38,940 nucleotides of DNA from Deltaproteobacteria bacterium (GTDB taxonomy: Bacteria; Myxococcota_A; Polyangia; HGW-17; SLPX01): contig JAABSF010000002.1 of assembly GCA_011390535.1 (NCBI GenBank), positions 1-38,940 of the forward strand. Reading direction: 5' to 3'. Every line of letters starts with the position of its first letter. Position 1 is the stretch's first letter. The notes under the pieces were generated by a model. It saw only the letters and a list, made by a program, of their open reading frames with translations. It ran no database searches and was not told where the DNA came from. Both the position numbers and the translations under genes were made by a program. Shown one piece after another: positions 27,858 through 34,118 of this stretch.

Positions 27858-28646
27858 TTAGGTTTTTCGTACTTTTTCAAGTGTCGTTTTAATGAGATTG
27901 ACATTTACGCAGGTGTCTTTGCATGGTCCGTTTGGGCGATGGTTTAATATTCCCATCACCGGGAGGTGTGGGATGTCACGAATACCCTCTGTAAGATCTC
28001 TTTCACAAGCTACCGCAATGATTAGTTTGGGACGTGTCTTTTTTACAATCTGACGTGCTACTTCTCCGCCTGTAGCGACGGCGATTGTGACGTTGGGCAT
28101 TTCCTCCATGAGCTCTCTTAATGAACCAAGATCGCATTTTCCACAGCTTTTGCACTTGTGGAGATCATTGGTTACTCTTATCCCGCAACCCGAAAACTGC
28201 AAGCAGTGTGGGACGAGCACAAGAATCGAAGAGTCGGCCTCTACGCTGTCAATGAGTTGACTTTGTGTCAGAGCGTTGTTGACCTCCAAAAATGACCTCT
28301 GGATCTCTTCTTTGTGTAGGCCTATCAAGCGGCCGATTAAGAGGGCCGCCGGTAAGAGAGCTTTAGTCGCCCAGTGCCGCTTGTTTCCGTTTCCCATGAT
28401 GGGTTTGCCTGTGTGAATGGCCAGCGCGGCTAATAACACTCCTCCAAGGAGGTAACTAAGTGCTCCAATGCCGATGACCATCATTACTGGGGATATATAA
28501 GATGATATTTGACGAAGCCTTGGATCCAACAAAAAGATGAACAGCGCAAAGATCAACCCCATGCCCAAAATGCTTAAGAGCGAAAGATAGAAAAAAGTAC
28601 GCTTATGGCTTCTTTCTTTGCTTTCTTCACTTTGTAATTGGCCCAT
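27858..28646 (-). CDS. DUF116 membrane protein with cysteine clusters
   Basis: From the ATG at 28644-28646 (AAGGA seven bases upstream) the protein has 262 residues; an upstream in-frame TTG at 28742 lacks such a site. Two membrane helices lie in the first 90 residues. The rest matches DUF116: VLVPHCLQFSGCGIRVTNDLHKCKSCGKCDLGSLRELMEE, then ATGGEVARQIV, KLIIAVACERDLTEGIR, and NGPCKDTCVNV. At least eight cysteines in these clusters suggest an iron-sulfur or metal site. No function is established to my knowledge. It follows the second lgt gene after 111 bases on the same strand, so a link with lipoprotein maturation or the membrane is suggested only by position. Confidence 0.85.
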   Translation of the reverse strand: MGQLQSEESKERSHKRTFFYLSLLSILGMGLIFALFIFLLDPRLRQISSYISPVMMVIGIGALSYLLGGVLLAALAIHTGKPIMGNGNKRHWATKALLPAALLIGRLIGLHKEEIQRSFLEVNNALTQSQLIDSVEADSSILVLVPHCLQFSGCGIRVTNDLHKCKSCGKCDLGSLRELMEEMPNVTIAVATGGEVARQIVKKTRPKLIIAVACERDLTEGIRDIPHLPVMGILNHRPNGPCKDTCVNVNLIKTTLEKVRKT

Positions 28647-28757
28647 TTGCTCTTCCTTTGGAACGCTTACATCGTTATGTTGTGTATAATAGTATTCTGA
28701 AAAAAAGTCTACCCTTCTATTTTTGTTGTAAGAGAGGTTCAATGTGTAGGCAGAATG

Positions 28758-29660
28758 CTATTTCGGAGGATGAGGTGAATTTCCATGGTGCGCTTTTGCT
28801 TGACGCTGGTATAGTAGGATAAAGGCGGTTACAGTTACAAAACAAAGGATAATTGAGACTAGCTGCGATGTAGAAAGAAAAGAGGGTGCCCCCTCTGGGA
28901 TCGACAAATATTTGTTTAACAAAGGAGTCTCCAGCTTTTTGATGTACCCCCTCGTAGGATCTCCACGAAAAATTTCGGTAAAAAACCTCAGCACCGCATA
29001 TGCGATGAGATAGAGAAAAATCACCCCTCCGTGAAAAGGTTTCTTGCGCTCGAAATACAAGATTCCCATAAAAATGGCAACTTCACCAAATGATTCGTAG
29101 AGCTGTACGGGGTGCAGGGGCATTGTCTCTGATGCTGTTACGGCGAGGACACCTTTGTTTTGCAAATCATCCATTGCGACAGATTCAGCGGGAAAACGTG
29201 CCGACAGAAAACCTGTTGCAGGTTTTCCCCAACAGCATCCGACACCGTAGCAACCCAAACGACCAAGGGCGTGACCTATGGACAGACCAGGTGCGATACC
29301 ATCGGCGGCTTTCAAAAAAGAAATTTTCTTTAGTTTAACCACCAAGGCCCCGGCGCACAAGGCGGCGATTACTCCTCCATAGAAAACAAACCCTCCATCC
29401 CAAAAAGCAAAAACAGTCAAAGGGCGGGCGGAAAAGCTCTGCGGGTTTGTCAATACATACATAATTCTTGAGCCGACGATAGAGGAAACCAATATCCAAA
29501 AAAGCAGATCGAGCATGTCATCTCGCTCTATTTTCAGAAAAGCGCTTCGCCGATAGATTACAACCAACGCAGCGAGATAGCCCACCGACATCATCACACC
29601 GTATGATCCGATTACTATCGGATGCCCCAATATTTCGAACTCAAACAGTTTCGGAAGCAA
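28758..29660 (-). CDS. lgt: Prolipoprotein diacylglyceryl transferase, copy 1
   Basis: Lgt moves diacylglycerol from phosphatidylglycerol to the lipobox cysteine of prolipoproteins, the first step of lipoprotein maturation. The protein has 300 residues and seven or so membrane helices. Family motifs are IGSYGVMM near the start, FWDGGFVFYGGVIAAL (the HGG motif, here YGG), the signature GRLGCYGVGCCWGKP (R and G retained; C where E. coli has the signature Asn), PLHPVQLYES, and RFFTEIFRGD. The Cys-rich signature form occurs in many non-enterobacterial Lgt enzymes. The start is TTG with an excellent AAGGAG eight bases upstream, and it overlaps the end of the other lgt gene by 20 bases. Confidence 0.93.
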   Translation of the reverse strand: MLPKLFEFEILGHPIVIGSYGVMMSVGYLAALVVIYRRSAFLKIERDDMLDLLFWILVSSIVGSRIMYVLTNPQSFSARPLTVFAFWDGGFVFYGGVIAALCAGALVVKLKKISFLKAADGIAPGLSIGHALGRLGCYGVGCCWGKPATGFLSARFPAESVAMDDLQNKGVLAVTASETMPLHPVQLYESFGEVAIFMGILYFERKKPFHGGVIFLYLIAYAVLRFFTEIFRGDPTRGYIKKLETPLLNKYLSIPEGAPSFLSTSQLVSIILCFVTVTAFILLYQRQAKAHHGNSPHPPK

Positions 29661-30615
29661 TGTTTCGGCTCCTTGCCAAAGAACGGTAGAAATAAAGGGC
29701 GACCAGAACTACCAGCAAACTGATTATTTGTGAGGTGCTCAAAAACAGCCAACTTCCACGCATGTCGGCTCTGAAGAACTCGAAAAAAAACCTGCCCAAG
29801 GAATATAGCCCCAAAAACGCAATCATAACTTGTCCGTGGAATTTTTTGCGGGGTCTTACGAATAAATAGACGATAAAGAAAATGGTTAGATTCGTAAATG
29901 CTTGATAGATCTGTGTTGGATGAACCGGGAGAGAAGGAAGATTAGCGGTTGTTAACAAACCCTCTCTGTATTGTTGCCAAGAGGCAAGGCTTCCGGATGG
30001 AAACACGGCGGCCCAAGATGCATCTGTGGTTTTACCGAAGCAACAGCCGTTCAGGTAGCATCCTATGCGGCCGAAGGTTAGGCCGAGGGGTAATAGAAAT
30101 CCGTAAATGTCCAATACTTTACCCCACTGTAATCTATGGCGCTTTACAAAAACGTAAGCAAAAAGCATGGCTGACAAAAACCCCCCATAATATGTCAACC
30201 CTCCTTGCCAACCACGAAAAGGTGCGAGGCAATCTCTTGGCGGGTGGCATTTGCCATGGGCCAAGGAACATAAGTATGAGATGTCGCCGAGCCTACACTG
30301 AGAATCATTAACGCAGCTCCGGTTTTCCAGCCCGACAGCCGGGAGCGCTTGGGGGTTTGTACAGAGCAGGATGTAGTCACCCAACATTCCGTCGAAGAGC
30401 ACATGTGCCAGCCGGGACCCGATCATGGCGAATATAACGAGATAAACCCACATGTCGGTTATTTTCACTACATTAAGATCAGTTCTCCTTGCTTCGCGGC
30501 GTGATAGGTAGAGGCTCAACCCGAAGGCCAGGGCCAGGAGAAAAAAATAGGAGGGAATAACCACTCGGCCTATGTAGGGGATTCCGCTTTCCCAGTCGAT
30601 CAGTTGAGGTCTCAT
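29641..30615 (-). CDS. lgt: Prolipoprotein diacylglyceryl transferase, copy 2, with Cys-rich insert
   Basis: This second Lgt has 324 residues: VVIPSYFFLLALAF, GWQGGLTYYGGFLSAM (YGG form of the HGG motif), signature LTFGRIGCYLNGCCFGK, LPVHPTQIYQAF and RFFFEFFRADMRGSW. It differs from copy 1 by an insert of about 45 residues (85-131) in the periplasmic loop just before YGG, with six cysteines spaced like a small disulfide domain (C-x5-C-x8-C-x6-C-x5-C at its core). Two tandem copies in one operon are unusual, since one Lgt normally suffices. It starts one base after the lspA stop and overlaps copy 1 by 20 bases, so all three are translationally linked. Catalytic residues look intact in both copies. 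Confidence 0.92.
   Translation of the reverse strand: MRPQLIDWESGIPYIGRVVIPSYFFLLALAFGLSLYLSRREARRTDLNVVKITDMWVYLVIFAMIGSRLAHVLFDGMLGDYILLCTNPQALPAVGLENRSCVNDSQCRLGDISYLCSLAHGKCHPPRDCLAPFRGWQGGLTYYGGFLSAMLFAYVFVKRHRLQWGKVLDIYGFLLPLGLTFGRIGCYLNGCCFGKTTDASWAAVFPSGSLASWQQYREGLLTTANLPSLPVHPTQIYQAFTNLTIFFIVYLFVRPRKKFHGQVMIAFLGLYSLGRFFFEFFRADMRGSWLFLSTSQIISLLVVLVALYFYRSLARSRNIASETV
30229..30363 (-). other. Cys-rich periplasmic insertion in Lgt copy 2
   Basis: This segment codes residues 85-129 of the second Lgt and has six cysteines (LLC, SC, QC, LC, KC, DC). The spacing and the xxDSQC / GKC steps resemble the Cys-rich repeats of the lipoprotein encoded at 33.3-34.1 kb (EFDGDC, EGYC). Confidence 0.7.
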
Positions 30616-30616
30616 G

Positions 30617-31372
30617 TTAACTTTTCCGGTTGCAGGGTTTTGGCTCTTTCATGGTTTTTTCTGTTTTTATATCGCTGGTAAACAAGAAAACAGCCAGAAA
30701 AAACATTCCAAGGGTTATTGCAATATCCGCCACATTAAAAATGGGCCACTCCACACCTTTGTGCCAATCGATGAAATCCACTACATATCCCCATCTCAAC
30801 CTGTCATGGAGGTTTCCCAGTGCACCTCCCAGCAGTGATGCAAAACCGAATATCATGATGGACTCATTAGCGCTGATCGGCCAACCCTTTTTTGAAGTTT
30901 CAATTAAAACTGAACTGTTTTCCGTTGCGGCTGATGATGTGATGGGTTTATTTCTGTGTGAATCGGAGACGGGTTCAGGCTCGGCTTCAGCGTTTTGTTT
31001 AGAGCTGTTTTCAAGACAGGTCCGTTCACGAAAGAAGGAAAAAACAAACAAACAGATGATTAGAATTGAGACCACTGACATCACCGTCAAGAAAAGGGCA
31101 CGCGTGTCTTTTGAAACAAAAGAGAAAAGTCCCCATGCTCCGGCGTGGTTTTCGGCATAGGTAAATCGCAACCACCCAGCTATTAACTCTAGGCCTGGCC
31201 CATGAGCGAGGGAGCTTTTAGCCCACGTTTTTGTAAGGATGTCCAGAATAAACCACGATAAGACCAAAAGGGTGAGCGTAATCCATCCGAAATGTTTTGT
31301 TTTTGTAGTTTTTAGAGTAGCTGGTGCTCCTGTAGATAATCTGTTTGGTTTATCGTTTTCCATCGGGTTCAC
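30617..31372 (-). CDS. lspA: Signal peptidase II with enlarged cytoplasmic loop
   Basis: LspA cleaves the signal peptide from diacylglyceryl-prolipoproteins. The conserved elements are all present: DILTKTWA in helix 1, FTYAENHAGAWG, GGALGNLHDRLRWGYVVDFID with catalytic Asp199, and PIFNVADIAI with catalytic Asp216. At 251 residues it is far longer than the usual 160-170. The excess lies in an N-terminal extension of about 27 residues and a hydrophilic, Ser/Glu-rich loop (about 115-168) between helices 2 and 3, predicted cytoplasmic. GTG at 31372 or ATG at 31363 could be the start; neither has a strong ribosome binding site. It is the first gene of the lspA-lgt-lgt operon. Confidence 0.95.
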   Translation of the reverse strand: MNPMENDKPNRLSTGAPATLKTTKTKHFGWITLTLLVLSWFILDILTKTWAKSSLAHGPGLELIAGWLRFTYAENHAGAWGLFSFVSKDTRALFLTVMSVVSILIICLFVFSFFRERTCLENSSKQNAEAEPEPVSDSHRNKPITSSAATENSSVLIETSKKGWPISANESIMIFGFASLLGGALGNLHDRLRWGYVVDFIDWHKGVEWPIFNVADIAITLGMFFLAVFLFTSDIKTEKTMKEPKPCNRKS

Positions 31373-33308: not shown

Positions 33309-34118
33309 TTAATTCTCCGGACGGTAATTGGCTACGCAGACACCCATGTCACAGATTTCCATTTCAGAACAATCATCACGAGTATCGCAGAGGGGGCGGC
33401 AGTAAGTATTTATACATAAGCACCCTCTGTCTCCACAGATGTCCAAGCTTGCACAATCGCTGCTGAAAACGCATGCGTTTTCGTGATCTCCTATTGTATC
33501 CGGGACACACAAATTCTCTTCCGAGCAGGTTTGACTGTAAGGACAATCTTCAGGTATTTCGCAAGTGAAAATACACATACCCTTAGAGGAGCAGACCCTG
33601 TCAGCGCCACACTCTTCGCTTGTTTCACAGTATGTTTTGGTGTCACCACATGCAGGGTTCTCTTCTGGGACGCAACGGTTACACTCCGGGTTGCAGACGT
33701 AGCCTTCTCCGCAGTCGTCATCTTCACGACAGCCGGATTGACAGGTCATAACCTCATCTTCATCAGGTTCACAGATGAGGCCCGCTCCGCAGTCATTGTC
33801 GTCTTCACACTCATGATTGGGTTCAGCCGCCGGCCCGCAATAGCCTTCGGGCAGACACCGCTCACCTTCTGCACAGTCTCCGTCGAATTCGCACATTTTA
33901 GCGCAGATCCCATCTGATGTGCAATGCTCGTCAGCTGCACAGCCATCTTCGCAGGAAGAGTTGTCAATCTCCCAGCAGAAGCAACTGTCTGTGTCGCAAG
34001 CATAACAGCCCGAATCATCGCAATAGACGGCCCGACACTCAGCACCTCCTGAATCTGAACAGGCAAAGGAAAAAAGAGCCGCAGTTAAAACAGCTCCAAG
34101 AAAACAATAGCGACGCAT
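33309..34118 (-). CDS. Cys-rich lipoprotein with repeated disulfide modules
   Basis: This 269-residue protein has an N-terminal signal and a Cys after FSFA at residue 20, followed by SDSGG as in other lipoproteins here. About 36 cysteines follow in at least six modules with spacing close to C-x5-C-x6-C-x5-C, for example CEFDGDCAEGERCLPEGYC, CREDDDCGEGYVCN and CDTRDDCSEMEICDMGVC. These resemble the Dickkopf-N/EGF-like modules abundant in secreted proteins of myxobacteria and Bradymonadota. The modules are very acidic and would bind calcium or partners; no enzyme domain is present. Transcribed toward nadB with 74 bases between stops. Function unknown; the same Cys pattern recurs inside Lgt copy 2. 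Confidence 0.85.
   Translation of the reverse strand: MRRYCFLGAVLTAALFSFACSDSGGAECRAVYCDDSGCYACDTDSCFCWEIDNSSCEDGCAADEHCTSDGICAKMCEFDGDCAEGERCLPEGYCGPAAEPNHECEDDNDCGAGLICEPDEDEVMTCQSGCREDDDCGEGYVCNPECNRCVPEENPACGDTKTYCETSEECGADRVCSSKGMCIFTCEIPEDCPYSQTCSEENLCVPDTIGDHENACVFSSDCASLDICGDRGCLCINTYCRPLCDTRDDCSEMEICDMGVCVANYRPEN

Follow-up and report, generated by a model that had tools for sequence, protein, structure and literature searches.

A conserved lspA–lgtA–lgtB unit of Myxococcota with two deeply separated Lgt paralogs, one bearing a Cys-rich arm-2 insert

Lgt is usually taken to be the only enzyme of its step and is considered a target for antibiotics. The window—the whole stretch of 38,940 nucleotides analyzed here—features two lgt genes, one behind the other, directly downstream of lspA (Table 1). 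This arrangement raises the question of what a second Lgt, encoded in the same unit as the first, would be kept for, and whether the two copies do the same work.

The stop codon of lspA is separated from the ATG of lgtA by a single base, and lgtA and lgtB overlap by 20 bases. These distances, as well as the reading frames and coordinates given in the original prediction, were all borne out on re-reading the sequence. The TTG start of lgtB is credible since an AAGGAG lies 8 bases upstream of it and the encoded N-terminus, MLPKLF..., fits the consensus MxPxLF of clade B, to which this copy belongs. We infer that lspA, lgtA, and lgtB are co-transcribed, and the overlapping genes lgtA and lgtB are likely coupled in translation. 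LspA matches Pfam Peptidase_A8 (PF01252, E = 5.8e-33) and TIGR00077 (78.9 bits at a cut-off of 73.95), and its translation contains both Asp motifs, namely GNLHDR (GNxxDR) and FNVADI. The two conserved halves of this LspA are separated by approximately 60 extra residues, which are mostly polar.

Table 1. Features of the lspA–lgtA–lgtB unit and of its downstream neighbor (window positions)
Feature	Coordinates	Strand	Remarks
lspA (lipoprotein signal peptidase), 251 aa	30617-31372	-	GTG start; opens the unit
lgt copy 1 (clade A, lgtA), 324 aa	29641-30615	-	ATG start; lspA-proximal
lgt copy 2 (clade B, lgtB), 300 aa	28758-29660	-	TTG start
DUF116 gene	27858-28742	-	TTG start, or ATG further in; directly downstream of lgtB
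Cys-rich arm-2 insert of lgtA, residues ~75-129, six Cys	30229-30393	-	between TM2 and YGG motif
lgtA signature GRIGCYLNGCCFG	30034-30072	-	alignment to E. coli Lgt; N146C, E151C (E. coli numbering)
lgtB signature GRLGCYGVGCCWG	29226-29264	-	alignment to E. coli Lgt
AAGGAG, likely lgtB ribosome-binding site	29669-29674	-	read from sequence; within the 3' end of lgtA

By Pfam and NCBIfam profiles and by predicted structure, both copies are Lgts with the seven-TM Lgt fold. PF01790 (Pfam LGT, cut-off 24.9) recognizes lgtB with E = 1.5e-54 and lgtA with E = 1.2e-53, both at 182 to 185 bits. The cut-off of TIGR00544 (NCBIfam lgt, 118.9 bits) is exceeded by lgtB with 147.6 bits and narrowly missed by lgtA with 110.5 bits, probably because its insert interrupts the domain. 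The AlphaFold models are confident (pLDDT 92.2 for lgtA and 89.8 for lgtB), and the sole significant PDB match of either model is E. coli Lgt (5azb) at a TM score of 0.67 to 0.75, with E = 1.4e-10 for lgtB.

Trees were calculated for 132 Lgts and, more carefully, for 78 Lgts with outgroups. Both trees place copy 1 in clade A and copy 2 in clade B (30 and 19 rows, respectively, in the tree of 78). A and B are mutually separate in 200 of 200 bootstrap trees, and clade A as a whole has a support of 100/95. Identity between the window copies is 33%, and A and B members of one genome share 33 to 41%; identity to the counterparts in G001, a genome of the same family, amounts to 60% for copy 1 and 46% for copy 2. 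Recent tandem duplicates were rejected, given this separation and the fact that the copies are not nearest neighbors in the tree. Clade B lies near GCC-type Lgts that are single genes in Thermodesulfobacteriota and Nitrospinota, and A and B as one clade yield p = 0.2 in the AU test, which is compatible with a duplication within Myxococcota or an earlier origin. The dN/dS ratios—from close pairs only, the window's own pair being saturated at synonymous sites against its nearest relative—are 0.07 to 0.13 for clade A, and 0.20 and 0.33 for clade B. Both clades are under purifying selection, and neither resembles decaying genes; clade B diverges somewhat faster than A, also in the window's own lineage. 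The separate ancient clades that the original prediction had envisaged are, hence, seen in the tree. Neither relaxed selection nor residue loss in one copy was found, both copies retaining their arginines, and, within the reach of sequence evidence, the notion of two functional paralogs of ancient origin is upheld. A young duplicate pair of which one copy is decaying, or an artefact of assembly, would be conceivable in a host genome this fragmented (G000; a draft of 3.4 Mb in 755 contigs, 66% complete), but its probability is negligible in view of the depth of the clades, the purifying selection, and an identical gene order in 16 other loci, including G001 with its upstream nadB.

Alignment to E. 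coli Lgt shows Y26, G142, R143, G145, G154, Y235, R239, E243, and R246 (E. coli numbering) conserved in both window copies, and H103, N146, and E151 replaced in both, by Tyr, Cys, and Cys, respectively. The intact signature regions ascribed to both copies, hence, hold for R143, G142, G145, G154, Y235, R239, and R246, but not for positions 103, 146, and 151. Throughout clades A and B, R143, R239, E243, R246, G145, and G154 are present in every row, Cys occupies 146 and 151 in all rows, and Tyr occupies 103 in all but one. A loss of catalytic residues confined to one copy was rejected, as both share one residue state. E. coli Lgt requires Y26, H103, R143, N146, G154, and R239 (PMC13251419), and in an earlier study H103A, H103N, H103Q, H103R, and H103Y did not complement (PMC4728403); the change of N146 and H103 in both copies speaks against two active enzymes. 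The lack of the canonical signature (N146, E151, and H103) in either copy is by itself no bar to Lgt membership, because distant Lgts have such replacements: a 2026 paper describes distant Lgts with C or C/D in place of N146 and E151, proposes a stabilizing disulfide for the Leptospira Lgt, and presumes weak activity for a homolog from M. smegmatis that carries N146C and also Y26H (PMC13251419). The GCC signature is, thus, not new but previously reported. Six genomes from other phyla have a single PF01790 match, an Lgt with the GCC signature; they are the complete Brocadia pituitae genome and those of Akkermansia, Endomicrobium, two Desulfobacteraceae, and one Planctomycetota. The signature appears compatible with being the only Lgt of a genome, activity being judged from sequence; in what appears to be the sole Lgt of several phyla, other residues stand in for N146 and H103, which E. 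coli needs.

The same residues bear on the idea that lipoprotein transfer is the task of just one copy, the other having shifted to another lipid donor or acceptor or to a role in regulation. N146, E151, and H103 are missing from both copies, and some divergent Lgts, Myxococcales included, may have another substrate or mechanism (PMC13251419). The Myxococcales outliers of that paper, however, are without R143 and R239, both of which are kept in clades A and B; moreover, A and B are each found beside lspA without the other, and GCC Lgts stand alone in genomes of several phyla. Such a shift of one copy is, hence, unlikely.

The gene order of the window recurs in related genomes, where the original prediction had proposed to look for tandem pairs. 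Seventeen distinct tandem lgt loci from several Myxococcota classes were found (the window, G001, G002, G013, G015, G017, G021, G039, G053, L159, L164, L169, L181, L184, L188, G120, and G130), duplicates being merged (G101 is the L181 locus and G039 the L162 locus). The first copy belongs to clade A in 17 of 17, and the second falls with or close to clade B almost throughout, the second copies of L164 and L184 having less firm placements; lspA was detected directly upstream in all loci except L169 (16 of 17). The genes upstream of the unit vary: a divergent nadB in the window and G001, and ileS in G053 (by eye, from the translation). In a scan of the genome collection with clade A proteins, the closest matches came from Polyangia and other Myxococcota (Sorangium, Polyangium, Sandaracinus, Labilithrix, and metagenome genomes), so that the host is probably an uncultured member of Polyangia. 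The lspA–lgtA–lgtB arrangement is old and widespread in Myxococcota. In the literature searched, with most subscription papers beyond reach, no description of a tandem lgt pair or of multiple lgt genes in Myxococcota was found. Another class features a further tandem lgt pair in family f33 (L290 to L293), which forms its own clades outside A and B and is linked to lspA in three of four cases.

Some genomes carry only one of the two genes at this site. Only A stands beside lspA in G014, G022, G030, G054, and G020; only B does so in one Anaeromyxobacter draft and in G005, G023, G031, and G029. The full match lists of these G-numbered genomes contain no other A or B member. The only-A and only-B genomes are draft assemblies, and since they usually also have a clade D copy, and in some cases one of clade E or another clade, neither gene is strictly the sole Lgt there. 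G005, which has B only, belongs to the same genus as G002, which has both. Because either gene can be missing beside lspA, the distribution suggests that the functions of A and B overlap. It also bears on an obligate LgtA–LgtB heteromer, the second option of the original prediction, which would fit the gene overlap with its likely translational coupling and the fixed order. Yet each gene occurs without the other, and clade A is solitary, away from B-like genes, in several relatives of the order, so that such a heteromer is very improbable.

The downstream DUF116 protein (Pfam DUF116, E = 1.8e-46) had been singled out as a neighbor of the pair. A link between them was not supported: DUF116 is absent beside the pair in G001, although nadB is retained there next to lspA–lgtA–lgtB, and it adjoins the pair in no tandem locus other than that of the window (17 loci). 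As a member of the unit, DUF116 was rejected for Polyangia, since it is missing beside the pair in relatives. Its proximity to lgt recurs outside Myxococcota, as DUF116 lies approximately 1.5 kb downstream of lspA–lgt in some Thermodesulfobacteriota and related genomes (L229, L230, and L233).

A second Lgt had been taken as exceptional, a view that was not supported: PF01790 matches are found in 59 of 59 relatives, mostly several in each—these tallies often list a clade A gene twice because its insert splits the profile match—and about 1,300 of 12,956 genomes have two lgt genes, some species reaching four (PMC13251419). The host genome itself contains further lgt genes or fragments, as the search for a third copy revealed. 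Contig C354 carries a canonical Lgt at a GC content of 51% versus 45% for the window and is a possible contaminant; the end of C173 (L009:4566-4817) holds the 5' part of a clade D gene; and the end of C166 holds a 3' lgt fragment that matches Lgt clades other than D. Clade D comprises Lgt-like proteins (23 rows) that carry the motif HDHPG and have F in place of Tyr26, C at position 146, and D at position 151, and is present in many Polyangia genomes (C173, L065, L147, L078, and others); on C173, the gene follows a bactofilin-like gene, as judged by eye. In the Myxococcota families f28, f32, and f34 (L297 to L303, L314, and L317), the sole strong Lgt match features GRxGCFLVGDDYG (or WG).

Several lgt genes in most genomes of the host's class would agree with mere redundancy or dosage, that is, with two copies that act alike on a shared set of substrates and are retained for capacity in lipoprotein-rich cells. 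The key residues common to both copies and the loss of either one beside lspA point the same way. Recent duplicates, however, would supply mere dosage more readily than clades that have remained distinct within genomes in an order fixed across classes, and the elaborate Cys pattern of clade A is missing from B. Redundancy alone is, hence, possible but rather improbable.

This Cys pattern is located in arm-2, taken here as the segment between E. coli positions 73 and 98. The segment has a median of 66 residues with 6 Cys in clade A (at least 4 Cys in 34 of 36 rows) and of 39 residues with 2 Cys in clade B; other clades have approximately 21 to 24 residues without Cys, and E. coli has 24, likewise without Cys. 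The clade B copy of the window's lineage has no Cys in arm-2. The lgtA insert of the window reads DGMLGDYILLCTNPQALPAVGLENRSCVNDSQCRLGDISYLCSLAHGKCHPPRDC. In the A1 alignment, C85 and C129 are invariant, and C107 and C123 are nearly so. The structure model of lgtA is confident across the insert, a Pfam search found no domain in it, and its Cys are probably disulfide-bonded. In E. coli Lgt, mutagenesis has attributed the specificity for protein substrates to H103, the head domain, and residues of arm-2 (PMC13251419). The insert of clade A is, hence, lineage-specific and located in the region governing substrate choice. What is new here is this Cys-rich insert on copy 1 as a concrete structural candidate for substrate division, a plausible idea for which the original prediction had offered ordinary versus Cys-rich lipoproteins as an example.

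Taken together, the locus is probably a conserved lspA–lgtA–lgtB operon of Myxococcota encoding two Lgts that would both be active and overlapping, most likely with different prolipoprotein preferences or conditions. Both LgtA and LgtB would act as diacylglyceryl transferases on the lipobox cysteine of prolipoproteins, ahead of cleavage by LspA, and their functions would overlap enough for lineages to lose either. The conserved Cys-rich insert of LgtA sits on arm-2, which lines the cleft of presumed substrate entry, and through this difference LgtA and LgtB may best serve different prolipoproteins or differ by conditions. A difference in substrate handling would be the likeliest reason for keeping both, because the insert sits in the region of substrate choice. 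A stricter version, in which the two enzymes divide the lipoproteome and the LgtA mini-domain serves in docking or redox sensing for one class of prolipoproteins, such as Cys-rich ones like that at 33309-34118, is doubtful; if true, it would establish a two-branch lipoprotein pathway within one operon. The product of 33309-34118, predicted to be a lipoprotein and rich in Cys, weakly resembles the Cys-rich repeats of the Dickkopf type (E = 0.006, below cut-off). The at least six lipoproteins attributed to the window were not reproduced, as a crude lipobox scan gave five candidates.

Two deep Lgt lineages in an order fixed across the phylum, one of them with an insert, offer a natural system for studying substrate division between paralogs. 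Compared with E. coli Lgt (PDB 5azb/5azc), the window copies share the fold, R143, R239, G154, Y26, Y235, E243, and R246, and differ by H103Y, N146C, and E151C, by the Cys-rich arm-2 insert of copy 1, and by two lgt copies in one unit with lspA. The GCC Lgts of Thermodesulfobacteriota, Nitrospinota, Planctomycetota, Verrucomicrobiota, and Elusimicrobiota share GRxGCxxxGCCxG with the window copies and often lie directly downstream of lspA, as in the window unit; however, they are mostly single genes, and the aligned ones are without the insert of lgtA. Streptomyces coelicolor, Mycobacterium smegmatis, and the B. cereus group likewise have more than one lgt per genome, but are not described in that work as having an lspA–lgt–lgt unit of two deep clades, and the second copy of M. 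smegmatis is without Y26, which both window copies have (PMC13251419). The lspA1–lspA2–lgt operon of Myxococcus xanthus (PMC8689077) belongs to the same phylum and also features clustered lspA and lgt genes with a duplication within the unit; there, the duplicated gene is lspA and a single lgt is described, whereas in the window unit it is lgt that is duplicated.
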